From Allomuricauda sp. CAU 1633 (lineage in GTDB: Bacteria > Bacteroidota > Bacteroidia > Flavobacteriales > Flavobacteriaceae), in the NCBI RefSeq assembly GCF_017313225.1, contig NZ_JAFLNE010000007.1:1-64000 (forward strand): a DNA stretch of 64,000 nt, read 5' to 3'. The notes beneath the pieces are model-generated. The model was not told the DNA's origin, made no database searches, and saw nothing but the letters and a program-made list of their open reading frames with translations. A program made the translations under genes and the position numbers. Shown here piece by piece: positions 53,291 to 64,000 of this stretch. Within the stretch, counting starts at the first letter, position 1, and every line of letters begins with the position of its first letter.

Positions 53291-53372
53291 GCCTTGGTGG
53301 CGGAATTGGTAGACGCGCTGGATTCAAAATCCAGTTCTTTCGGGAGTGTGGGTTCGATTCCCACCCAAGGTA
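53291..53372 (+). tRNA. tRNA-Leu (anticodon CAA)
   Basis: 82 bases. Acceptor GCCTTGG (53291-53297) pairs with CCAAGGT (53365-53371), with one G-T pair. The anticodon stem CTGGA/TCCAG (53318-53334) encloses TTCAAAA, anticodon CAA at 53325-53327. The long variable arm (class II) and T stem GTGGG/CCCAC with TTCGATT fit tRNA-Leu. CCA is not encoded. Downstream a strong terminator follows; the tRNA 3' end is the likely attachment site of the island that begins here. Confidence 0.95.
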
Positions 53373-53375
53373 CTT

Positions 53376-53410
53376 AAAAACCCTGATAATAAATTGATTA
53401 TCAGGGTTTT
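53376..53410 (+). terminator. Strong intrinsic terminator after tRNA-Leu
   Basis: AAAACCCTGATAAT (53377-53390) and ATTATCAGGGTTTT (53397-53410) make a 14-bp stem with a 6-base loop; a T-rich tail follows (GTCTTTCTAT). Confidence 0.85.
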
Positions 53411-53433
53411 GTCTTTCTATAAGTGACGTAAAA

Positions 53434-53637
53434 GTGACGGTTTTTGAGATAAAAAATGATAAAATTACCACTCTAAAACTTCAGGATCTGTCCAGTCTTA
53501 TGGATAAATTTAGTCACAAATTTTCTAAAGGTCCTAACCCTATAACAAGTAAATTATCGGCGGTAAAGCGTAATTATGATCTCAGCATTAGAAGTGTAAT
53601 ACTGTGGCTGTTATATTTTATATCAATTAATAACTAA
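53434..53637 (+). CDS. Doubtful small open frame next to tRNA-Leu
   Basis: GTG-initiated, 67 residues (SLMDKFSHKFSKGPNP in the middle and a hydrophobic end VILWLLYFISINN). No family recognised. It could be a remnant of a gene at the left edge of the mobile island or a chance frame. The GTGACG motif is repeated at 53423-53440 (GTGACG-TAAAA-GTGACG). Confidence 0.3.
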   Translation: MTVFEIKNDKITTLKLQDLSSLMDKFSHKFSKGPNPITSKLSAVKRNYDLSIRSVILWLLYFISINN

Positions 53638-53950
53638 TATTTTGAATGTTGCCATGATATATGGTTAGAGAGAACAGTTTAATGCCTATCTTTAGATGAA
53701 TATATTTTGTTCAAACCCTTTTCTAAAGTCTTACTACTATCTTATTGCCCGTAGAGAAAAGGTTTTTTACACATCTATTTACAAATATTTCACAATTCTT
53801 CAGGGTACGGGAATCAAAAATAAAGTCGTATTTCCTTTATAAGCTTTGATGTTTTAACATAGAAGTGACATCTGTAGCACATGATTTGAGAACACAATGT
53901 TTTGAGATGCTGTGCTGCGGAAACGAGTAATTAAACCTAAAATTAATAGA
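53638..53950. other. AT-rich gap of 313 bases
   Basis: No gene is seen. A weak imperfect hairpin (AACC-TTTTCT with AGAAAAGG-TT, about 53717-53765) is followed by a T-run and may be a terminator. The last part probably holds the leader and promoter of the next gene but no clear -7 match was found. Confidence 0.4.
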
Positions 53951-54856
53951 ATGGCAGACAAGGCAGATTTGGATTTTACGTACACCACCATAGACAAAAT
54001 ATTCCGTTTAAGTATGGGTGAAACCGCAGATTACAGCGGTGCCAAGTACGATGGTGATTTCTCAATGTCCTTGGAAGAGGCGCAAAAGGAAAAGAACAGG
54101 TTTATAGCGGACAGCCTCAATATAGATGGGGAAAGTAAGGTGTTGGATATGGCATGTGGCTGGGGTCCATTCTCCCATTTTATCACAAAGGAAAGGGGGG
54201 CAATCAGTATTGGATTGACCTTGTCGAAGGGTCAAGCGGAGGCATGCCAAAAAAATGGACTAAATGTGTTTGTAAAGGATTGCCGGTATGTAAAACCGGA
54301 AGATTTTGGAACCTTTGATGCCATAGCTTGTATAGGAGGTTTAGAACATTTTTGTTCGGTTGAGGAGTGGAAAGAGGGGAATCAAGAAAAGGTATATAGT
54401 GATTTTTTCAGAACCCTTAATGATTTATTGCCAAAAGGAGGTAGGTTCTACATGCAGACCATGACGTTTAGCAAAAACATGATCGATTTTGAAGAACTGG
54501 ACGTCAAGGCCAAAAAAGGCTCAGCAGCCCATGTCATGGCACTGATGGTCAAAGAATTTCCGGGTTCATGGTTGCCCTACGGCCCAGAAATGGTGATACG
54601 AAATGCCGAACCAAACTTTAGATTGATCTCGCAAAGTAGTGGTAGACTGGACTATATTGAGACGATAAGCCAATGGCGAAAGAAGTTCAGGAAGTTCAAC
54701 CTGAAAAAATATTGGCTCTACTTATCCCTAGTACCCAAATACGTTATTGACAAGGAATTTAGACATCAAGTGGCCGTCTTTAAAATCAGCCCAAACAAAA
54801 TATGCTTTGAAAAGGAAATAATGGACCATTATCGGTTGGTGTTTGAGAAAATTTAG
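53951..54856 (+). CDS. SAM-dependent methyltransferase, cyclopropane-fatty-acid-synthase-like
   Basis: 301 residues (ATG 53951; 53912 is a less likely upstream start). The SAM-binding motif I is VLDMACGWGPFSHFI, followed by GLTLSKGQAEACQ and the post-motif FDAIACIGGLEHFCSVEEW. The pattern DLDFTYTTIDKIFRLSMGE-TADYSGAKY is that of the mycolic-acid/CFA synthase branch. The substrate may be an unsaturated lipid or a small metabolite. First protein gene of the island; its function within it is unclear. Confidence 0.85.
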   Translation: MADKADLDFTYTTIDKIFRLSMGETADYSGAKYDGDFSMSLEEAQKEKNRFIADSLNIDGESKVLDMACGWGPFSHFITKERGAISIGLTLSKGQAEACQKNGLNVFVKDCRYVKPEDFGTFDAIACIGGLEHFCSVEEWKEGNQEKVYSDFFRTLNDLLPKGGRFYMQTMTFSKNMIDFEELDVKAKKGSAAHVMALMVKEFPGSWLPYGPEMVIRNAEPNFRLISQSSGRLDYIETISQWRKKFRKFNLKKYWLYLSLVPKYVIDKEFRHQVAVFKISPNKICFEKEIMDHYRLVFEKI

Positions 54857-54916
54857 ACAGTCAAAAGTTTATTGATCAAATCCTTGGAATTGAGGAAGAC
54901 CATTCAAAATAAATGA

Positions 54917-55477
54917 ATGAAATTATATATAAAATACATGGTCAGTCTTCGCTGCAAAATGTTGGTAAAGGAAGAATTGACAAAGTTGGGACTGGATTAT
55001 GTTACCTTGAATCTGGGCATGGTGGAAACTAAGGAGGAAATTACCCATGAAAAGAGAATCCAACTCAAAAATAATCTGCTGAAGTCTGGATTGGAATTAT
55101 TGGATGACAAAAAGAGCATATTGATTGAAAAAATCAAGAATGCAATAATCGAAATGATCCATCATACCGATGAGATACCAAAAACCAATTACTCCGGGTA
55201 TTTAAGTGAAAAATTAGGGTACGACTACACGTATTTGTCCAACACGTTTTCAGAGGTGAAAGGAATCACTTTGCAGCATTATATCATTAAACACAAAATC
55301 GAAAGAGTAAAAGAGTTGCTCCTATATGACGAACTCAATCTTACCGAAATAGCATATAAACTTCATTATAGTAGCTCCGCACATCTCTCCAATCAATTTA
55401 AAAAAGTCACCGGTCTCACACCCTCCTATTATAAAAAGTTAAAGGAAAAAAGGACGCAAAACTTGGAAAACCTGTGA
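54917..55477 (+). CDS. AraC-family transcription regulator (flavobacterial short form)
   Basis: 186 residues. The N-terminal ~65 residues (LYIKYMVSLRCKMLVKEELTKLGL, ferredoxin-like pattern) look like a small sensory domain; the linker is SGLELLDDKKSILIEKIK. The C-terminal ~100 residues are an AraC DNA-binding domain with two helix-turn-helix units: YLSEKLGYDYTYLSNTFSEVKG and LNLTEIAYKLHYSSSAHLSNQFKKVTG. Probably regulates neighbouring island genes; signal unknown. Confidence 0.85.
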   Translation: MKLYIKYMVSLRCKMLVKEELTKLGLDYVTLNLGMVETKEEITHEKRIQLKNNLLKSGLELLDDKKSILIEKIKNAIIEMIHHTDEIPKTNYSGYLSEKLGYDYTYLSNTFSEVKGITLQHYIIKHKIERVKELLLYDELNLTEIAYKLHYSSSAHLSNQFKKVTGLTPSYYKKLKEKRTQNLENL

Positions 55478-55582
55478 TATATGTAAAGTTTAATATTATT
55501 TATGTAGCAAACCCCACCTAATTCTATCGCACCTTTGTTTATTGCTGATAATTATATAATCAGCTTGATAACAAATCATACT

Positions 55583-55741
55583 ATGGACATATTTAAAAAA
55601 AATATATCGGTTAAAGGGATTCTAGAAAAACTTCTCAGTCTTTACCCTCCGATTATTGAAAGCTTAAGGTTAAAAAATGAAGAAGAAAGTGAATTGAACA
55701 AAAGTTTAGTGCCTAGGTTGATTCGAATTAAAAATAATTGA
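55583..55741 (+). CDS. Small protein (52 aa) after the AraC regulator
   Basis: MDIFKKNISVKGILEKLLSLYP then ESLRLKNEEESELNKSLVPR. It is hydrophilic with a leucine-rich helix, and a terminator follows. A longer frame from 55535 uses a TTG start and adds nothing recognisable. No family known; moderately likely to be real. Confidence 0.45.
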   Translation: MDIFKKNISVKGILEKLLSLYPPIIESLRLKNEEESELNKSLVPRLIRIKNN

Positions 55742-56048
55742 AAGTAATCTTTAATGCAATGTTGGCTCATATGCTTTGAAGCAATTTAATTTGTTGATAC
55801 GTGCTTTTAAATTTTTAGAAGCCCAAAAAAGAGCAGGAACTAAAAAACACTGCTCTTTTTTCTTGTTGTTACTTACCCTTGCCCAATAGAACATTTTACA
55901 ATCATAGTCCCAGCCATTCCAACTATCCTAAGCCAACAATAAACATTCGGTTGTGAGAAAATGTGTAATCTTTTTTATTCTGTTCATAACAATGCTCATG
56001 CTGGCAAGCACATTGCCATGAAGCAATGACAACTTAAATAAATATACT
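55742..56048. other. 307-base gap with a strong terminator
   Basis: Contains the terminator at 55825-55861 and no convincing gene. The later part (55862-56048) holds the promoter of the basic small gene; TAATCTTTTTT (55968 region) is a weak -7 match. Confidence 0.5.
55825..55861 (+). terminator. Intrinsic terminator in the island
   Basis: AAAAAAGAGCAG (55825-55836) pairs with CTGCTCTTTTTT (55850-55861) around a 13-base loop, ending in T-rich sequence. Confidence 0.85.
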
Positions 56049-56165
56049 ATGTCAAAAGAAAGAGAAGGAAAGAAAAAGTCTGGAAAAACACTGCCTTCAA
56101 AAACCCCTAAAGAAAAAAAGGCGGCAAAAAGGGCCAAACGGAATGCCAAAAACAGGTCGGAATAG
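56049..56165 (+). CDS. Small strongly basic protein (38 aa)
   Basis: Starts MSKEREGKKKSGKTLPSK and ends KRAKRNAKNRSE. About 40% Lys/Arg with an alanine-rich helix. The same type of protein occurs in many Bacteroidota, usually unannotated; it is probably nucleic-acid-binding. It lies directly upstream of the cupin gene, the frames being offset (a longer cupin start at 56143 would overlap it). Confidence 0.6.
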   Translation: MSKEREGKKKSGKTLPSKTPKEKKAAKRAKRNAKNRSE

Positions 56166-56199
56166 AGGGGAAGGGATACTAATCTTAATACCATTAATT

Positions 56200-56532
56200 A
56201 TGGACAAGGGTGAATTTGAGGAATCCATCACGTTTAACTTGGCGGATATACTGGAGTTCAATTCCAATTCCATTGTGGTAAAAAACATAAGTGTCCAGAA
56301 CAACTGTATCATACAGGCATTCGCATTTGATTTCGGCAAGGTGTTGTCCCATAGTGAATCCCCTTTTATTCGATTCGTCCATATCATTGAAGGAAAAGCC
56401 GAGGTTGTGATAAACGGTAATTCTACTTTTATGCGGAGAGGGGATTCCATAATTATACCTGCATTTACACCCTGCTCCTTTGAAGCAAATCATAAATTTA
56501 AGATGTTATGTACCACTATAAAAAATGAATGA
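56200..56532 (+). CDS. Cupin-fold ligand-binding protein, AraC-sensor-like
   Basis: 110 residues from MDKGEFEESITFNLADILEF. The cupin motif is VIEGKAEVVINGNS then RRGDSIIIPAFTPCSFEA; the metal-binding histidines of the first motif are largely missing (only one His in FVHIIEG), so it may be a non-catalytic sensor. Resembles the ligand-binding domain of AraC regulators without a DNA-binding part. Directly upstream of the DUF1611 operon (33 bases). Confidence 0.6.
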   Translation: MDKGEFEESITFNLADILEFNSNSIVVKNISVQNNCIIQAFAFDFGKVLSHSESPFIRFVHIIEGKAEVVINGNSTFMRRGDSIIIPAFTPCSFEANHKFKMLCTTIKNE

Positions 56533-56565
56533 CCCGTCTATTTCATCTACACAAAAGAATATTCA

Positions 56566-56787
56566 ATGAAAAGAAATGCCACAAAAAAAGAATACCAAAG
56601 AGGAGATCTTGTTTACGCAAAGGTAAGGCCGACGGTACTGCTTGTGGTGCGATTGTATGTTCGTAAAGTCTACTACTGTGCTATCCAGAACGACCCGGCC
56701 AAAAATGAATTGGTTTATTTGGCCAGCGAGCTTAAACCGTATGTAGGTAATCTATCTACTATTAAACATGAACAACTGACATTATGA
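56566..56787 (+). CDS. Small conserved Bacteroidota protein (73 aa), first gene of the DUF1611 operon
   Basis: KKEYQRGDLVYAKVRPTVLLVVRLYVRKVYYCAIQNDPAKNELVYLASEL: the pattern (GDLVYAK then VVRxY then YYCxIQNDPxxxELVY) is common in Bacteroidota, but no function is known. The stop overlaps the DUF1611 start as ATGA (56784-56787). Confidence 0.7.
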   Translation: MKRNATKKEYQRGDLVYAKVRPTVLLVVRLYVRKVYYCAIQNDPAKNELVYLASELKPYVGNLSTIKHEQLTL

Positions 56788-57863
56788 AAGAAAGCGCACT
56801 AGTTTATTGTGAAAACGAATTTGGGAATATAGACGGTAAAGTGGCCAATGGACTTATTAGACAATCGGAAAGGTATACCATTGTTGGAGTCATAGACAGT
56901 ACCAAAGCCGGACAAGATGCAGGTGAGTATCTTGATGGTGTAAAAAACACTATTCCAATTTTTAAAAGCATTGAAAGTGCCCTGGAAGAATTGGGCAGTA
57001 TTCCGAAATACTTTATCTATGGCATCGCCCCTCTCGCTTCATTTTTAGACAATGAACAAAGAGAGATTATTTTTACAGCTATGAAGAGTGAGATGGACAT
57101 CATTAATGGTCTTCCAGAATTTTTTAGCGATGATCCGCAATTTTCCAAGATGGCCCATGTGCATGGGGTAACCATCCAGGATGTGCGAAAGCCGCCTGGA
57201 CGTGAAAACCTTCACAATTTTACTGGACGCATCCAAAATGTAAAAGTTCCAATAATCACAGTAATGGGAACTGATTGTGCTGTTGGCAAAAGAACCACTG
57301 CCTTATTTTTGGTGGAAGCACTTCGGAATGAAGGCTTGAATGCAATTTTTGTCACCACTGGTCAAACCGGCCTCCTCCAAGGTTCCGAATATGGGGTGGC
57401 AGTAGACGTACTAACCTCTGGGTTTGCCACGGGAGAAGTTGAGCATGCTATTCTGAATGCTTGTGAGAAAGAGGAACCCGATATCATTGTAGTGGAAGGC
57501 CAAGGAGCTTTGAGTCATCCCGCATTTACCTCTTCAAGCGCCATCTTGCGTGGTGCAATGCCCGATGCCATTATTTTACAACACCCTCCCAAGCGAAAAA
57601 GCTATTGTGATTATCCCAAAATTCCAATGTTGGGGCTACTTGGTGAGATCGAAATGATAGAGATGTTCTCCAAGGCCAGGGTAATAGCAATTACCGTCAA
57701 CCATGAAAAGATGGACATTGCTGAAATAAGCCAATTCATTACGAGATGTGAATCCGAATTTAATCTGCCCGTCACAGATGTTTTGAAGTATGGGTGCGAT
57801 AAATTGGTAAAAGCATTACTCAGGACATTTCCAGAGCTTGCAAGGGAATCTGTGTCCGTTTGA
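56784..57863 (+). CDS. DUF1611 family P-loop protein (DgcN-like)
   Basis: 359 residues. A Rossmann-like N-terminal domain is followed by a P-loop domain with the Walker A GTDCAVGKRTT (about residues 161-172), FVTTGQTGLLQGSEYGVAVD, EPDIIVVEGQGALSHPAF (Walker B-like) and LQHPPKRKSYCDYPKIP. DUF1611 proteins such as DgcN were shown in marine Proteobacteria to N-acetylate D-glutamate before racemisation. Here the operon lacks the DgcA epimerase partner and has a PLP racemase instead, so the substrate may differ. Co-translated with the next gene (TTG start over TGA). Confidence 0.82.
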   Translation: MKESALVYCENEFGNIDGKVANGLIRQSERYTIVGVIDSTKAGQDAGEYLDGVKNTIPIFKSIESALEELGSIPKYFIYGIAPLASFLDNEQREIIFTAMKSEMDIINGLPEFFSDDPQFSKMAHVHGVTIQDVRKPPGRENLHNFTGRIQNVKVPIITVMGTDCAVGKRTTALFLVEALRNEGLNAIFVTTGQTGLLQGSEYGVAVDVLTSGFATGEVEHAILNACEKEEPDIIVVEGQGALSHPAFTSSSAILRGAMPDAIILQHPPKRKSYCDYPKIPMLGLLGEIEMIEMFSKARVIAITVNHEKMDIAEISQFITRCESEFNLPVTDVLKYGCDKLVKALLRTFPELARESVSV

Positions 57864-58945
57864 ATCTTCCGAGAATAGATATTGATTCTGCGAAAATTGC
57901 ACATAACGTCCAACAATTGACAACGCTTTATGGCACCAAAGGCATCAAAATAATAGGAGTCACCAAGGTCATTGGCGGAGATCCGGTCATTGCTGGGATG
58001 ATGGTGAAAAATGGCATCAAAACCTTGGCGGACTCCAGATTGGAAAATATCCAGAGAATGCGCAAAGCTGGTATACGGGCGCAGTTTATGTTGCTCAAGT
58101 CACCAGCCCTTAGCCAAGCGGAAGAAGTGATCACCCATACCCATATTAGCCTGAATTCGGAACTCATAGTACTCAAGGAACTTTCAAAATGTGCCTTGAA
58201 AAATCATAGTATCCATAAGGTAATCTTAATGGTGGAACTTGGAGATTTGCGTGAAGGAATCATGCCTTCGGAAATGGAGAATATGGTAAGGGATGTAATT
58301 AGCTTGAAAGGCATCGTTTTGATTGGGATTGGTACAAACCTCGCTTGTTTAGGTGGAATAGCGCCTGATTCTGATAATATGGCTGAGCTATCCTCCATTG
58401 CTGGGCATTTGGAAAACAAGTTCAATATTTCCCTGGACATAGTGTCCGGGGGGAGCTCTGCTAACTACCGTTGGTTCAGATCATCGAAAGATGTGGACAG
58501 GATAAACAGCTTGCGTTTGGGAGAGTCTATTTTTCTGGGACGGGAAACACTTTGTAGAGAACCCATCCCTGGACTTTTTACCGATATATTTACCCTTGTG
58601 GCCGAGGTTATTGAAGCAAAACAAAAACCTTCCCAACCTTATGGTAAAGTCTATCAAAATATGAACGGTAAAATACTCCACTTCAAAGATCATGGGTTAA
58701 TGAACAGGGCCATTTTGGGCATTGGCTTGCAGGATGTTGTGGTTTCTGGAATTGTCCCGAAACAAAATGTGACCATTTTAGGAGCAAGTAGCGATCATAT
58801 CGTGGTAGATAACAATAAGGCAAATTTAGAGGTGGGCGATACTGTAACATTCGATCTTAACTACAATGCCTTGTTGAGAGGACTGAACTCCCCATATATA
58901 ACAAAAAATCATGTCAACTATCAAGAATGCAAAGAAGTATTGTGA
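57860..58945 (+). CDS. PLP-dependent racemase of the alanine/ornithine racemase family
   Basis: 361 residues, beginning at TTG 57860, which overlaps the upstream TGA. The alanine-racemase-fold PLP lysine is Lys36 in IIGVTKVIGGDP; PNATLE-type motif KTLADSRLENIQRM is the ornithine/YggS-like helix. Phosphate-binding region GGSSANYRW and the C-terminal beta-domain ends LLRGLNSPYITKNH. Family members racemise Ala, Ser, Glu or ornithine. Here it would interconvert L/D forms of the amino acid handled by its neighbours. It overlaps the next gene by 35 bases. Confidence 0.88.
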   Translation: MNLPRIDIDSAKIAHNVQQLTTLYGTKGIKIIGVTKVIGGDPVIAGMMVKNGIKTLADSRLENIQRMRKAGIRAQFMLLKSPALSQAEEVITHTHISLNSELIVLKELSKCALKNHSIHKVILMVELGDLREGIMPSEMENMVRDVISLKGIVLIGIGTNLACLGGIAPDSDNMAELSSIAGHLENKFNISLDIVSGGSSANYRWFRSSKDVDRINSLRLGESIFLGRETLCREPIPGLFTDIFTLVAEVIEAKQKPSQPYGKVYQNMNGKILHFKDHGLMNRAILGIGLQDVVVSGIVPKQNVTILGASSDHIVVDNNKANLEVGDTVTFDLNYNALLRGLNSPYITKNHVNYQECKEVL

Positions 58946-59606
58946 AGTTGTGGAAGCCAGAGATACCCGAAACAAGATCTTGGCCCCGACCATTCCAATC
59001 AGGGAAAATCACGCCGCCCTAAAAAGTTTAAAAGAGGCAGGTCTTCATTTGATTTTTGAATCCTCGTTCATGGATGGCTATCAATATTTGGTCCGGGAAG
59101 ATATGATCGAAAAAATAGCCCGTATAAGTCAACGATTGGATGCGCAAAATAAGACCTTGATCATCCGTTCCGCATGGAGGTCCTTTGAACATCAACAGCT
59201 ACTTTGGGAAACCAAATTTATATCCTTTGGAAGAATGCAAAGGATGCATCCTGAAAAGTCTTTTAAAGAGATTGAAGAGATGGTCAGCCATTTTATTGCT
59301 CCGCCCCAAAAGTCAATGCATACCACAGGTGGAGCAATAGATGCATTGATCTATGATGACGTTAATGATTGTGTCATGGACTTTGGGACGAATACTGGGC
59401 TGGAAATCAAGCTCTCAAAGCAATGTTACCCCTACCACCCGGGCATTGGCCCTGAAGCGAAGAAGAATAGGGCCCTGTTGATAGGATTGTTTGAAGATGA
59501 AGATTTTGTGTGTGATCTTAAAGAATATTGGCATTTTGATTATGGCGATGTCATGTGGGCCATTGGAAAAGAAAAGGAATATGCCATTTATGGCTCGATA
59601 ATGTAA
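58911..59606 (+). CDS. D-alanyl-D-alanine dipeptidase, VanX-like M15 family
   Basis: 231 residues. The zinc-binding and catalytic motif is SMHTTGGAIDALIY (S-x-H-x2-G-x-A-x-D, about residues 135-145) and the second part EYWHFDYGD (E-x-W-H, about residues 204-212), as in VanX/DdpX. It lacks an obvious signal peptide, so it is predicted cytoplasmic like VanX. It hydrolyses D,D-dipeptides. Translationally coupled to the racemase by a 35-base overlap; the operon ends here. Confidence 0.87.
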   Translation: MSTIKNAKKYCEVVEARDTRNKILAPTIPIRENHAALKSLKEAGLHLIFESSFMDGYQYLVREDMIEKIARISQRLDAQNKTLIIRSAWRSFEHQQLLWETKFISFGRMQRMHPEKSFKEIEEMVSHFIAPPQKSMHTTGGAIDALIYDDVNDCVMDFGTNTGLEIKLSKQCYPYHPGIGPEAKKNRALLIGLFEDEDFVCDLKEYWHFDYGDVMWAIGKEKEYAIYGSIM

Positions 59607-59750
59607 TTAAGATAAGCTTTCAAGGAATCAGACCAAGGATAGATAGTTTTTTGCCTCATTGGACAATCTGTGATTTATGCAAGATTGGTTTGGTTCAGTG
59701 TAACAGTTTGGGGATGTGAAATCCCATCTTTGCAATTAAACACAATTACT

Positions 59751-60599
59751 ATGGATAATGACCCTATAAGAGAAATAAAAAATGCACTGAAAAAGAGTCA
59801 ATGGAGAAATTTGTTCATTATTACCGTATTGGCGGTACTTCTAATTGTATTTAAACCATGGGTGCAGATTGGGGCAGGTGAAAGAGGTGTTGTCCAAAAT
59901 TTCGGGGCAGTACAGGATAAGGTATTGAATGAAGGGATTCACTTCAAAATACCAGTAGTACAAACCGTGATTCCCATGGATGTTAAAATTCAAAAAATCA
60001 TGACAGATGCCGCTTCTTCATCCTCAGATCTTCAGGATGTGGATTTATCTGTTGCACTTAATTATCACATTATACCCGATAAAGCTAATTTGGTTTATCA
60101 AACCATTGGTGTGGAATTTAAGGAGCGTATTATTGACCCTGCCATTCAAGAGGTGATGAAAGCAGTGTCGGCCAAGTATACCGCAGAAGAATTGATTACC
60201 AAAAGACCGGCAGTAAGCTCGGAAATGCAAGAAGCCCTTACTTCTAGATTGCTTGTTTCGAACATATCCGTTGATGCCTTTTCTATCATCTCATTTAGTT
60301 TTTCTCAGACGTTTACCGATGCGATTGAGGCAAAACAAACCGCTGAACAAAATGCATTGAAGGCAAAAAGGGACCTGGATAGGATAAAAGTCGAAGCTGA
60401 GCAGACCATTGCTGCAGCAACTGCCGAAGCAGAGGCACTTCGTTTACAGAAAATGAATATTTCACCCGACCTAATTGAACTCAGGAAGATAGAAGCAAAC
60501 CTAAAGGCCATAGAAAAATGGAATGGGATTTTGCCCCAAGTAACGGGTGCAGGCGCCATTCCCTTTATTGGTGTGGGAGATGTTATTAGGAACAGATAA
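59751..60599 (+). CDS. Prohibitin-family (SPFH/band 7) protein
   Basis: 282 residues (ATG 59751). Single membrane anchor LFIITVLAVLLIVF (residues 21-34) followed by the band-7 start IGAGERGVVQNFGAVQDKVL, GIHFKIPVVQTVIPMDVKIQ and the coiled-coil end (AIEAKQTAEQNALKAKRDLDRIKVEAEQTIAAATAEAEAL). Prohibitin-like proteins form ring complexes in the membrane, sometimes protecting against stress or phage. 145 bases downstream of the dipeptidase; separate transcription unit. Confidence 0.88.
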   Translation: MDNDPIREIKNALKKSQWRNLFIITVLAVLLIVFKPWVQIGAGERGVVQNFGAVQDKVLNEGIHFKIPVVQTVIPMDVKIQKIMTDAASSSSDLQDVDLSVALNYHIIPDKANLVYQTIGVEFKERIIDPAIQEVMKAVSAKYTAEELITKRPAVSSEMQEALTSRLLVSNISVDAFSIISFSFSQTFTDAIEAKQTAEQNALKAKRDLDRIKVEAEQTIAAATAEAEALRLQKMNISPDLIELRKIEANLKAIEKWNGILPQVTGAGAIPFIGVGDVIRNR

Positions 60600-60621
60600 T
60601 TGATCATCATTGAATTTAAAC

Positions 60622-60843
60622 ATGGAGACGATAATCACTAAGTTTATATTGATTCACTTCATAATGGGAGGTATTAGAGGGTTTTATAGATATCTTATGA
60701 TTGAAAAACACCAATACAATTACTATGATCATTCCATGAAACTTGGAGGAAAATTGGCCCATAATTTGTTATATGGCACTTTCAATTCAACTACTCTTTT
60801 CATTTCAGTTTGTTTGACCGTCCTGGTATTTTTTATCTCTTAG
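60622..60843 (+). CDS. Small membrane protein (73 aa)
   Basis: Two hydrophobic segments: ITKFILIHFIMGGIRGFY and STTLFISVCLTVLVFFIS, with a positive loop between. No family recognised. 22 bases after the prohibitin gene, so probably co-transcribed. Confidence 0.6.
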   Translation: METIITKFILIHFIMGGIRGFYRYLMIEKHQYNYYDHSMKLGGKLAHNLLYGTFNSTTLFISVCLTVLVFFIS

Positions 60844-61247
60844 GAAGCACATACTGCCGATATAGAAATGTATCTTTTTCCATAACTTTTTGATAGAATT
60901 AAGTCTATTTTTCTATAGTAATTGACTTGATTTCAGATTGAGTTCCCTAATTCTTAAGTAACAATTAGCATTGCTGTTACAATAATCCTAAATAAAGAGT
61001 ATTTGTTCAAAATATTGGGCAAACATCGGCTGTTCATCTGTATACAGAAATTCCTGTTGGTATCAATTGTATGAGAGACCGCCTTATCACGTAAACGTCA
61101 AGATGGTTGCCAAATATGATGTAAAAACTGTTTTGGGAAAGTGGTAAAGGACAATTGAATTATATCGGAACAATGAATAATGGTGTTGAATACCTTATGC
61201 CTTCTCAATAATTTCCTCCTTATCTGCCAAAACATTAAATTAGGTAA
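60844..61247. other. 404-base gap, probably holding a decayed gene
   Basis: A GTAACA ... TGTTAC inverted repeat lies at about 60958-60980. The remaining part contains a coding-like remnant broken by frameshifts (see separate entry). No promoter or RNA gene is certain here. Confidence 0.4.
61028..61211 (+). pseudogene. Frameshifted remnant of an unidentified gene
   Basis: One frame reads YERPPYHVNVKMVAKYDVKT and VLGKW then stops; a second frame picks up at 61125 and reads QLNYIGTMNNGVEYLMPSQ to the TAA at 61209-61211. A third gives HLYTEIPVGINC further upstream. Together they look like one protein interrupted by at least one base change. The original family is unknown. Confidence 0.35.
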
Positions 61248-61973
61248 ATGAACGACAGCATCAGTAAATACTTGCTCTTATTGTGTATTGCATATGCCTA
61301 TATACGGCTGTTTATAGCTTATATAAGATTCTTTGCAAGATATATGTTCAATGAAAAGGTTGGATGGGACAAATACATTGAAAGGCCCCGATTGGTATTT
61401 TATGGTATTGGCCTACTTCTGATGCATACCACCTATTCTAAGATTATGAAAGATACACAGGAATCTTTAAGTGTATATTCCATTTTAAATCTTGTAGTCT
61501 TTGTTCAAGGATTTGTGTTTAGCCAGATAACATGGTCCAAGATGTTCAAAGGTGTTTTTATTCCAAGTATCAAAAAGAAGTTGCGTTCGTCCAAGAATTT
61601 CAATATCTCCGCATCCAAATCGCATTTGGACAAGCTGTATGATGAACTTGTCAGGTATGAAATGCTAAGACTTGAACAAACTACTAGGGAGGATTTTCTA
61701 AATGCGCTTACCAATAATTGGAATGCACACGAATCCAAAATCCATTTTAACTTGGACTCCCCAAGTGCCAGAGAGTTTTATGAGTTCTTTACGGCATCTT
61801 TTCCAAGCAACTCAATGACCTTAAAGGACTTCTTCGAGACCTCCAATGTTATCCGAAGACCGGATGGCAGACCTTACAACTATTCCACCATAAAGAACGC
61901 GCCGATACGTACCCCTGTTTCCAAGCGGAATGGAGATCTGCAGGTTGTTTTTTCATCTTTCCAAAACCAATAG
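61248..61973 (+). CDS. Membrane protein with conserved soluble C-terminus, mobilization-associated
   Basis: 241 residues. Three or more membrane segments (LLLLCIAYAYIRLFIAYI, LVFYGIGLLLMHTTY and ILNLVVFVQGFVFSQITW) are followed by a soluble part, FNLDSPSAREFYEFFTASFPS then MTLKDFFETSNVIRRPDGRPYNYSTIKN. I recall this last segment from mobile elements of Flavobacteriia next to helix-turn-helix and mob genes. Function unknown. Confidence 0.6.
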   Translation: MNDSISKYLLLLCIAYAYIRLFIAYIRFFARYMFNEKVGWDKYIERPRLVFYGIGLLLMHTTYSKIMKDTQESLSVYSILNLVVFVQGFVFSQITWSKMFKGVFIPSIKKKLRSSKNFNISASKSHLDKLYDELVRYEMLRLEQTTREDFLNALTNNWNAHESKIHFNLDSPSAREFYEFFTASFPSNSMTLKDFFETSNVIRRPDGRPYNYSTIKNAPIRTPVSKRNGDLQVVFSSFQNQ

Positions 61974-62073
61974 GATTACCTACAATTCCAATTTGGATAC
62001 ATGGCATGCAATGCTGACATTTCCTTTTGTTTCCCTTGCTAGTTTAGTTCCATCGTCACATAAAAATGGGAAA

Positions 62074-62367
62074 ATGGATTATTTTGAACTAATGGAGAAA
62101 TTGGACCGAATTGAACGGTTATTGGTCTCCAACAAGGAAGTATTGACACTCGAGGAAACCTGTGAGTATACGGGTATTTCCAGAAGTTATCTGTACAAAC
62201 TGACCGCAGCTAGGGAAATTCCCCATTCCAAGCCCAATGGGAAAATGATATTCTTTGAAAAGAAGAAGCTCAATGAATGGTTATTGCAAAATGGAAGAAA
62301 ATCCAAAATGGAAATTGAGGATGCGGCCATTAAATACACCCTTAAAAGGAGAAATGGCCAATTGTAG
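62074..62367 (+). CDS. Excisionase/MerR-type helix-turn-helix protein
   Basis: 97 residues from MDYFELMEKLDRIERLL. The HTH is LTLEETCEYTGISRSYLYKLTAAREIPHSKPNGKMIFFEKKKLNEWL (given in parts: LTLEETCEYTGISRSYLY, AREIPHSKPNGKMIF), the standard HTH_17/Xis pattern with helix-wing. Such proteins regulate mobile-element excision or transfer genes in Bacteroidota. A longer frame from 61930 overlaps the previous gene. Confidence 0.82.
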   Translation: MDYFELMEKLDRIERLLVSNKEVLTLEETCEYTGISRSYLYKLTAAREIPHSKPNGKMIFFEKKKLNEWLLQNGRKSKMEIEDAAIKYTLKRRNGQL

Positions 62368-62410
62368 AACAATGCATTTGATCTTGCGTCTGAGTGGAAA
62401 TTCAAGATGT

Positions 62411-62457
62411 GTCATTGTCATGACAAATCTTGCTTTTGCTCCCGGAGGTCGCAAAAG
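62411..62457. other. Candidate origin of transfer (oriT)
   Basis: The gap between the HTH gene and mobC has a perfect palindrome TTGTCATGACAA (62415-62426) and an inverted repeat CTTTTGC (62433-62439) / GCAAAAG (62451-62457) with an 11-base loop TCCCGGAGGTC. Position directly 5' of mobC and relaxase is where oriT is found in MOB systems of this kind. Nic site not identified. Confidence 0.5.
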
Positions 62458-62468
62458 ATGATGGAAAT

Positions 62469-62765
62469 ATGAAAAAGGAGTTCGTCCAGTTCCGATGCTC
62501 GGTCTACGAGAAGAAACTGCTGAAGGTAAAGGCCAGAAAGAGCGGTCTATCCATCAGTGAATACTGTCGCCGAGCAGCATTCAATGACAGGATAATTGAG
62601 CGGATGACCGATGAGCAAATTGAGGCCTATAAAATGTTGGTGAAATACCAAAGGAACTTCAAACTGATCACCAATATGTTCCGCAAACGCAACCCAAAAT
62701 TGGCAGAAGAAGTAGCCCAACTGGCCAATGAAATACGACAGCACCTTATAAGCTTCAAAAAATGA
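62469..62765 (+). CDS. Mobilization accessory protein MobC-like
   Basis: 98 residues from MKKEFVQFRCSVYEKKLLKV. The ribbon-helix-helix-like start (QFRCSVYEKKLLKVKARKSGLSISEYCRRAAF) binds DNA in relaxosomes; C-terminal helix KMLVKYQRNFKLITNMFRKRN. Overlaps the relaxase start by ATGA (62762-62765). A longer frame from 62430 would extend into the inverted repeat. Confidence 0.82.
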   Translation: MKKEFVQFRCSVYEKKLLKVKARKSGLSISEYCRRAAFNDRIIERMTDEQIEAYKMLVKYQRNFKLITNMFRKRNPKLAEEVAQLANEIRQHLISFKK

Positions 62766-63631
62766 TAGGAAAGGGTAAAGCAATATCACACACTGCAGCT
62801 TCCATGAGCTATGGACTGAAGGAAGAAAAGGATTCAGAAATTATCCACAGTCAATATCTGGCCGGGGAAACTCCAAGGGAAATTACGGAGGAGTTCAGGG
62901 TCATTCAACAGCAGAACGAACTATGCAAAAAGAACACGCTCAGCTTTGTGCTAAGCCCGACGATAGAGGACGGTAAAAAACTGGAAGCGAAACAACTGAA
63001 AGAAATGACCGAACGGTTCCTTAAAGAAATGAGGTTAAAGGAAAATCAGGCTGTGGCCTTTGTACACAGGGACAAGGAACACGTACATGTCCACCTCTAT
63101 GTGAACCGGATAAGCTTTGAGGGAAAGGCCTACAATGACAGTTTCATTGGAAACCGGAGCCAACAAATGGCCGAGAAGGTGGCTAAACAGATGAACCTCA
63201 CTACAGTAAGGGAGGTGCAACAAGAAAAGTTGTATAGGATGAATGAAATCAGGTCGGAAATACAGCGGATCCATGAAAAAGTCATGGCCAAGGAGCGGCC
63301 AAGGGATTTTGACCAGTATATCAAATCGATGGAGGAGAACAAGGTGAAAGTCATCCCGAGTATCAACAGACAGAACCAATTACAGGGCTTTCGGTTCGAG
63401 TACAAAGGAACGAACCTTAAAGGTAGGGAGGTGCACCGTTCCATGTCCATGGGCAGAATTGCGGGCCAAATGAACTTTGAGAAGGACAGGGTACAAAGAA
63501 TGGCAAAGGACAGGAGCATGGAACTTTTGGGTAGGACAGTGAATGTCCCATCCAATTTGGCAGCAACCATTGCCAAGAAAACAATAAAACTGGCCATCAA
63601 AGTGGTCAGGGATACGGGAATAGGAATCTAA
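62762..63631 (+). CDS. Relaxase/mobilization nuclease (MobP/VirD2-like)
   Basis: 289 residues. The three-histidine metal motif is HRDKEHVHVHLYVNRISF (about residues 100-117; H-x-D-x2-H-x-H-x-H-x3-NR). The N-terminus MIGKGKAISHTAASMSYGL is that of Bacteroidota relaxases; the catalytic Tyr or Ser cannot be fixed by eye but a Tyr lies in MSYGL. Nicks the oriT strand and leads transfer. Its own conjugation machinery is not in the window, so the element is presumably mobilizable. Confidence 0.9.
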   Translation: MIGKGKAISHTAASMSYGLKEEKDSEIIHSQYLAGETPREITEEFRVIQQQNELCKKNTLSFVLSPTIEDGKKLEAKQLKEMTERFLKEMRLKENQAVAFVHRDKEHVHVHLYVNRISFEGKAYNDSFIGNRSQQMAEKVAKQMNLTTVREVQQEKLYRMNEIRSEIQRIHEKVMAKERPRDFDQYIKSMEENKVKVIPSINRQNQLQGFRFEYKGTNLKGREVHRSMSMGRIAGQMNFEKDRVQRMAKDRSMELLGRTVNVPSNLAATIAKKTIKLAIKVVRDTGIGI

Positions 63632-63641
63632 ATAGTATACC

Positions 63642-64000
63642 ATGGCAAAACTTGATGAAATAGCGGAACTGTTGACCGAGGAGATAAGTGAGTTTGAAAA
63701 GAGCATCGCACGATTGGAAAAGGTGCATGATGGCATGCAGAACCTTCAACTTAGGCCTGATACTGCTGGGATTGATGCACTCTTGAAAGGGTACAGCAAC
63801 AATCAAAAGAAAAACATTGAGGAACAGCAAAAACTGATGCAACGGATTCTTCGCAAGGTGGAGAAATCAATTTTGTTGCCAAGTTGGGCCATAAAACTGT
63901 CTTGGGGATTGTTGGTGTGTGTCCTTTTGGTCATCGGATTTTCGGTCTATCAGGTATCAAGGATATCCAAGAAAGAAGAGGCTGCATATATGAAAGGCCG
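63642..64000 (+). CDS. Membrane protein next to relaxase, cut by window edge
   Basis: The N-terminal 119 residues are visible: MAKLDEIAELLTEEISEFEK with a coiled-coil-like run (NNQKKNIEEQQKLMQRILRK), then a membrane segment LSWGLLVCVLLVIGFSVY and charged RISKKEEAA. It lies 10 bases after the relaxase and belongs to the mobilization unit. A similar gene follows relaxase in other Bacteroidota elements; role unknown. The end is outside the window. Confidence 0.7.
   Translation, partial: MAKLDEIAELLTEEISEFEKSIARLEKVHDGMQNLQLRPDTAGIDALLKGYSNNQKKNIEEQQKLMQRILRKVEKSILLPSWAIKLSWGLLVCVLLVIGFSVYQVSRISKKEEAAYMKG

Follow-up and report, generated by a model that had tools for sequence, protein, structure and literature searches.

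Within the 64,000-nucleotide stretch of the Allomuricauda sp. CAU 1633 genome analysed here (contig NZ_JAFLNE010000007.1, positions 1 to 64,000; hereafter the window), the forward strand carries an operon at 56566-59606 that consists of a small open reading frame (ORF), followed by genes for a DUF1611 P-loop protein, an ornithine-racemase-like pyridoxal phosphate (PLP) enzyme, and an M15 metallopeptidase. The DUF1611, racemase, and M15 genes are intact, under purifying selection, and kept as a unit together with AraC, cupin, and SPFH genes. The enzyme module is real, conserved, and mobile, and a PLP racemase stands in it in place of the epimerase that is the usual partner of DUF1611. As to its function, it is plausible, if still short of probable, that the genes form a mobile D-amino-acid module in a stress-type cassette, in which an L-amino acid would be converted to its D-form and then to an N-acyl-D-amino acid, with the M15 enzyme as an accessory and stress rather than nutrition as the purpose; this reading is drawn from sequence comparison.

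Conservation of the DUF1611, racemase, and M15 genes

The operon opens with a 73-amino-acid (aa) protein without Pfam match (56566-56787), whose gene ends in an ATGA overlap with the DUF1611 gene. The latter (56784-57863; 359 aa) starts in this ATGA and encodes a Walker-A-like GTDCAVGKRTT motif at 57267-57299. The racemase gene (57860-58945; 361 aa) begins with a TTG at 57860 that overlaps the DUF1611 stop codon and has its Lys36 codon at 57965-57967. The M15 zinc peptidase gene (58911-59606; 231 aa) shares 35 bases with the end of the racemase gene and encodes the motifs SxHxxGxAxD (59313-59342) and ExxH (59523-59534). These overlaps had been described in a sequence-only reading of the window; their coordinates were confirmed, and they recur identically in a second copy of the cassette and in Flagellimonas oceanensis. 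The family assignments made there held up as well: the DUF1611 protein reaches 217.8 bits with PF07755 (cut-off 25) and 74.7 with PF17396 (22.6), the racemase 86.3 with PF01168 (24.1), the only Pfam domain found in it, and the M15 protein, with its zinc motifs intact, 42.7 with PF01427 (27). Between the window and the second copy, the ratio of nonsynonymous to synonymous substitution rates (dN/dS) is 0.10 for DUF1611, 0.13 for the racemase, and 0.16 for M15. No exact match to the Bacteroidota promoter pattern was found on the forward strand of 53401-60900.

The second full copy of the cassette is located on the same contig, approximately 85 kb away (L007 9048-16280; about 139.0-146.3 kb). Its proteins are 72% (AraC), 72% (small ORF), 92% (DUF1611), 86% (racemase), 89% (M15), and 93% (SPFH) identical to those of the window, and a cupin gene is also present. 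It is neighboured by glycosyltransferase, PIG-L, and second SPFH genes and by a gene that we take, from its sequence, to be BON-like; a search of the stretch around it with the relaxase of the window gave no match. A third DUF1611 gene, on another contig (L008 4239-7434), belongs to a separate DUF1611 subclade; it is flanked by a threonine-synthase-like gene (419 bits; cut-off 266) on one side and an L-Ala-D/L-Glu epimerase-like gene on the other. The genome thus holds both partner arrangements.

The same three genes are also conserved together in other genomes, a check that the sequence-only reading had proposed. The named loci nearest to the window's place its genome close to Flagellimonas/Muricauda in the Flavobacteriaceae. 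In the family, racemase matches (E <= 1e-30) were obtained in 30 of 397 genomes at 31 places, 15 of which (in 14 genomes) share at least 51% identity with the window's racemase, the other 16 sharing 32-37%. DUF1611 adjoins all 15 close racemases and is found within 1.5 kb of none of the 16 distant ones, while M15 adjoins 13 of the 15 and none of the 16. Both close racemases without M15 lie at contig ends: in G016 the 280 bases after the racemase hold no M15 match, and in G390 the racemase itself is cut. In the genus, the cassette is present in 13 of 71 genomes, and the 12 places outside the window's own genome all have DUF1611 and M15. In the phylum, the racemase has matches (E <= 1e-45) in 61 of 395 genomes; 29 places outside the own genome were examined and 31 further places were not. 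One of the 29 (L076), in another class of Bacteroidota, has DUF1611 (65% identical), racemase (59%), M15 (58%), and AraC (77%), and the remaining 28 have neither DUF1611 nor M15 within 1.5 kb. Furthermore, racemase and M15 are fused in frame in G177 (a single 597-aa frame; L055 9099-10892). The pairwise distances of the three proteins at 19 loci correlate with coefficients of 0.95, 0.90, and 0.95, to which little weight is given because common descent alone produces such values.

The unit is larger than the four genes initially recognised, as AraC, cupin, SPFH, and a 77-aa gene usually travel with it. To survey companions, the proteins of the window served as tblastn queries (E <= 1e-6, with half the query length covered) against the 8.5-kb surroundings of DUF1611, at 20 racemase-type loci from 19 genomes and at 20 DUF1611 loci of the epimerase type from this family; G016 and G390, which lie at contig ends, were left out, as was the epimerase-type locus G081. 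At the racemase-type loci, AraC was found 20 times, cupin 19, SPFH 16, the 77-aa gene 15, a sigma factor 9, a fatty-acid desaturase 9, and an epimerase not once. At the epimerase-type control loci none of these companions was found, and the epimerase was present at 19 of 20. The view that the genes have no functional link and are chance neighbours in one mobile element is largely refuted and has become hardly credible. It would agree with the patchy spread in the genus and with the relaxase nearby in the window, but not with the 58-65% identity retained in another class, the gene overlaps and the racemase-M15 fusion, or the contrast with the control loci.

Isomerase partners of DUF1611 proteins

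The nearest named relative of the window's DUF1611 protein is DgcN, a D-glutamate N-acetyltransferase according to excerpts of PMC11747546. The reference genes are arranged as dgcR-dgcN-dgcA in a plasmid record of Pseudoalteromonas sp. CF6-2, with DgcN and DgcA under EC 2.3.1.312 and 5.1.1.25. As in DgcN-DgcA, the window couples a DUF1611 enzyme to one that alters amino-acid configuration, and both DUF1611 proteins have the P-loop, TGQ, and EGQG motifs in the alignment, so that similar chemistry is likely. Unlike DgcN-DgcA, the window has a PLP racemase instead of the enolase-type DgcA, no dgcR, an extra M15 gene, and AraC, cupin, and SPFH neighbours. That the arrangement differs from the known pair, as had been suggested from the sequence, is therefore borne out.

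DUF1611 exceeds the cut-off in 77 of the 397 family genomes, and partners within 1.5 kb were scored at 29 loci. A stereo-isomerase is present at 26 of them (18 DgcA-like epimerases and eight racemases); a threonine-synthase-like gene is the only one of the scored partners at three and also occurs at one of the 18 epimerase loci. In the DgcN-type plasmid or archaeal records that were opened, the epimerase adjoins DUF1611 in five out of five. On a tree of 59 DUF1611 proteins (a quick tree with long-branch warnings and with partner labels set by hand), partner type needs four changes, which is the minimum, whereas shuffled labels need 21.4 on average and none of 200 shuffles was as low. The racemase-partnered group alone takes three changes because the V. 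coralliilyticus protein and the partnerless one of Vibrio nigripulchritudo group with those from the plasmid pairs. DUF1611 genes are usually accompanied by an isomerase gene, whose class tracks the DUF1611 subfamily, with a few partnerless exceptions. This offers a testable rule for the largely uncharacterised DUF1611 family, namely a stereo-isomerase companion whose class goes with the subfamily.

The DUF1611-racemase pair is also found on plasmids of other phyla. Among 18 plasmid records with a racemase match (E <= 1e-30), 10 were opened, and in seven of these DUF1611 is located directly upstream of the racemase with a 4-base overlap (V. europaeus, V. lentus, V. cyclitrophicus, V. parahaemolyticus, Aliiroseovarius, Ruegeria conchae, and Phaeobacter). 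None of these seven proteobacterial pairs showed an M15 gene within the 15-19 kb of surrounding sequence that was opened; DUF1611 and the racemase are therefore the likely core and M15 an accessory. Chaperone or HflK/HflC genes are located near four of the seven, namely GroES/GroEL and two Hsp20 genes (V. europaeus), GroES/GroEL (Phaeobacter), and HflK/HflC (Ruegeria and V. parahaemolyticus, the latter with NhaA). In V. coralliilyticus, DUF1611 lies beside HflK/HflC without a racemase, and by eye its frame has a racemase-like tail, which suggests that a racemase was lost. In the stretches opened of the Shinella, Sinorhizobium, and Photobacterium records, the racemase is present but DUF1611 is not.

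Several further features of these loci were observed. The roseobacter-group pairs (L107, L108, L109) have three similarly placed genes upstream of DUF1611, one of which encodes a repeat protein that, judged by eye, probably has a signal peptide, and in the Vibrio pairs (L104, L105, L112, L113) a gene for a type II secretion system (T2SS)-pilotin-like lipoprotein lies downstream of the racemase. The V. nigripulchritudo plasmid DUF1611 (L110 6896-8065) has an altered P-loop and no racemase annotated beside it. A DUF1611 protein also occurs in 34 records of Erwinia and Dickeya jumbo phages; in phage AD1 (L153 3956-5873), the gene for it and a putative asparagine synthase gene overlap.

Substrate, order of reactions, and competing explanations

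Lys36 of the racemase is present in all 15 aligned racemases and aligns with a lysine of alanine racemase that we take to bind PLP. For alanine racemase, excerpts of PMC8142540 name Lys-39 and Tyr-265 as the bases. The window's enzyme failed the Alr test (TIGR00492, 40.6 bits; cut-off 168), and the C-terminal domain PF00842 was not found. It was rejected as the cell's own alanine racemase, given that the genome has five PF01168 places, one of which is far stronger (190.1 bits). Closer to it is the ornithine racemase Orr, which yields D-ornithine in an ornithine-degradation pathway, as stated in excerpts of PMC8803604. The window's racemase belongs to the same family and is 42% identical to a protein above the Orr cut-off (505.7 bits; cut-off 480), whose gene is clustered with OraE, OrtB, and a GlmL-like gene. 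Unlike for Orr, no aminomutase or thiolase genes and no other ornithine-degradation neighbours are found among the cluster genes scanned. On a Shinella plasmid, another 42% relative (L106 7001-8788) is fused to an arginase-like domain and neighboured by D-amino acid dehydrogenase, agmatinase, and 5-guanidino-2-oxopentanoate decarboxylase genes; this locus looks like a D-arginine catabolic operon. From the Orr-type and arginase-fused relatives, we infer that a basic substrate is likely for the window's racemase.

In the cytosol, the racemase would hence be expected to act on a free amino acid, probably a basic, ornithine-like one, and to interconvert its L- and D-forms. The DUF1611 protein, as a relative of the D-glutamate N-acetyltransferase DgcN, may then acylate the amino group of the D-form and thereby pull the reaction from L to D to N-acyl-D. 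M15 is envisaged as an accessory cytosolic zinc hydrolase that acts on a D-residue dipeptide or amide and feeds or limits the pool, and the product would be of use in stress tolerance or envelope physiology instead of nutrition. PLP racemases form a Schiff base with a free alpha-amine; racemisation should thus precede acylation, and the DgcN-then-DgcA order cannot hold. The idea that an already acylated amino acid is racemised does not agree with this PLP chemistry, and the DgcN-DgcA order would have to be reversed. As the racemase-partnered DUF1611 branch cannot run that order, a different product is predicted for it.

The recurrent genes that were scanned include no recognised gene for a transporter or for amino-acid catabolism; together with the AraC, cupin, and SPFH company and the chaperone or HflK/HflC genes on some plasmids, this favours a role in stress over one in nutrition. 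Mobile stress cassettes are described mainly by their chaperones and proteases. The cassette resembles mobile stress-tolerance islands (heat-resistance loci) in its mobile setting and in the chaperone or HflK/HflC genes near four of the seven plasmid pairs, and differs from them in that no Hsp20, Clp, or FtsH gene is found among the window-cassette genes scanned. Should the product prove to be an N-acyl-D-amino acid that cells make under stress, a metabolic cargo would be added to such cassettes. A more specific version, which is speculative and on the whole rather unlikely, holds that mobile stress cassettes of marine bacteria have a biosynthetic D-amino-acid module in which a basic-amino-acid racemase followed by DUF1611 yields an N-acyl-D-amino acid as protective solute or signal, with M15 in charge of its turnover. 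The DUF1611 family would then consist of D-selective acyltransferases for which the partner isomerase sets the direction, catabolic with an enolase-type epimerase and biosynthetic with a PLP racemase. A D-amino-acid module as stress-island cargo was not found in the literature searched, and no description of a DUF1611-racemase-M15 unit was found among the open-licence PubMed Central papers listed or in excerpts of PMC10845958, PMC11747546, and PMC12363236.

Several points weigh against the stress-related reading. The DUF1611 protein is not DgcN, with which it had been equated from the sequence (158.1 bits with NCBIfam NF041892; cut-off 480), and shares 30% identity with the DUF1611 protein of strain CF6-2 in an alignment that covers 75% of its length; an epimerase-partnered family member likewise remains under that cut-off (237 bits). 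The racemase scores 374.2 bits against the Orr cut-off of 480 (NCBIfam NF040742), compared with 367.2 and 243.5 for two plasmid partner racemases and 405.8 for the racemase-M15 fusion. We know of no activity for any member of this clade. If DUF1611 acylated a side-chain amine, the argument about the order of reactions would fail. DUF1611 occurs without an annotated isomerase on the V. nigripulchritudo plasmid and in phage AD1, and the DUF1611-epimerase pair of Halorussus adjoins an NlpC/P60 peptidase, a layout like that of salvage. SPFH, AraC, and cupin genes are no proof of a stress role, and the window's cassette is without a chaperone gene; around three of the seven plasmid pairs no chaperone or HflK/HflC gene is annotated in the gene tables of PLSDB, which are incomplete. 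Finally, the 20 racemase-type loci share kinship, so that their counts are not independent events.

Salvage, which the sequence-only reading had offered, is the first alternative and a strong rival, somewhat less likely than the stress-related reading: a cytosolic M15 would split D-residue dipeptides, the racemase would make the L-form for growth, and DUF1611 would acylate or detoxify excess D-form. The M15 motifs SxHxxGxAxD and ExxH are intact and invariant in the 19 proteins aligned (zinc/catalytic motifs according to excerpts of PMC3610138), a racemase-M15 fusion exists, and the NlpC/P60-DUF1611-epimerase neighbourhood of Halorussus also fits. Two distant racemase loci that were scanned both have an SSF symporter, and one also has Alr and an M20 peptidase. 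A dipeptidase-first pathway is nevertheless unlikely to be the core, because M15 is missing from the opened flanks of the seven plasmid pairs and no transporter or catabolic gene was recognised among the recurrent genes scanned. The company of a regulator, a cupin, and an SPFH gene also speaks against salvage; moreover, an acyltransferase is not needed if a PLP racemase gives the L-form directly.

It was further considered that DUF1611 is an ATP-dependent amide-forming enzyme that joins a D-amino acid to another group, and that M15 hydrolyses the product. The complete P-loop kept in the racemase-partnered DUF1611 proteins aligned, the fusion of M15 and racemase, and the overlap with a putative asparagine synthase gene in phage AD1 are in line with this proposal. 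We regard it as distinctly improbable, since DgcN, the nearest named relative, is called an N-acetyltransferase (NCBIfam; excerpts of PMC11747546) and M15 is missing from the plasmid pairs.

A change of the peptidoglycan precursor as in VanX-type glycopeptide resistance, another suggestion of the sequence-only reading, is very remote. The M15 protein is in the family that includes VanX and DdpX, has the same SxHxxGxAxD and ExxH motifs, and shows no signal peptide by eye. Unlike these enzymes, it stays far below both cut-offs (24.7 versus 320 bits for VanX, NCBIfam NF033115, and 43.8 versus 176 bits for DdpX, NCBIfam PRK10178), and its partners are the racemase and DUF1611 rather than Van or Ddp genes; no Van-type ligase or lactate dehydrogenase is present among the cluster genes scanned. 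The structure model of M15 was unusable (mean predicted local distance difference test, pLDDT, 41), and a sequence search of the PDB gave no M15 match at E up to 0.1.

The surrounding cassette and the relaxase insertion

Upstream of the operon, a tRNA-Leu (CAA) gene is located at 53291..53373 on the forward strand, as are all cassette genes, and the block common to F. oceanensis starts approximately 150 bp downstream of it. The block contains a CMAS/cyclopropane-synthase-like methyltransferase (53951..54856; ORF opens at 53912), an accessory gene present at three of the 20 racemase-type loci. It is followed by the short AraC-type regulator (54917..55477) and the cupin (56200..56532; ORF opens at 56143), for which the 109-111-aa form in several relatives fits the ATG at 56200. 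Downstream of the operon are the SPFH/band-7 protein (59751..60599; ORF opens at 59670) and the 77-aa hydrophobic protein, which has no Pfam match (60610..60843). The sigma factor and desaturase genes are found on the window's own contig just past the window end.

In contig coordinates, F. oceanensis is colinear over 53527-60834 (92.7% identity) and 64205-68163 (90.2%; outside the window). The segment in between is missing from F. oceanensis and represents a separate 3.4-kb insertion (60835..64000, continuing to contig position 64204) with a relaxase (62762-63631) and an excisionase-like helix-turn-helix gene. The operon had been placed on an island with mobilization genes; the relaxase block being a separate insertion, this placement does not stand, and the cassette as cargo of a relaxase element is ruled out. 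Relaxase-like genes (52 and 56% identical) occur elsewhere in the 19-kb stretches of two relatives (L045, L047), and within 8.5 kb at one of the 20 loci. A repeat of the tRNA end as attachment (att) site was rejected, as the final 14-20 tRNA bases were found only once in the 84 kb examined. A defence system was likewise rejected, with PADLOC giving one weak match for five proteins (M15, 17.6 bits). Compared with L040, window positions 53527-60834 are mosaic: the CMAS, AraC, and SPFH proteins are 98-100% identical, DUF1611 91%, and the racemase 86%, and these unequal identities suggest recombination inside the cassette.

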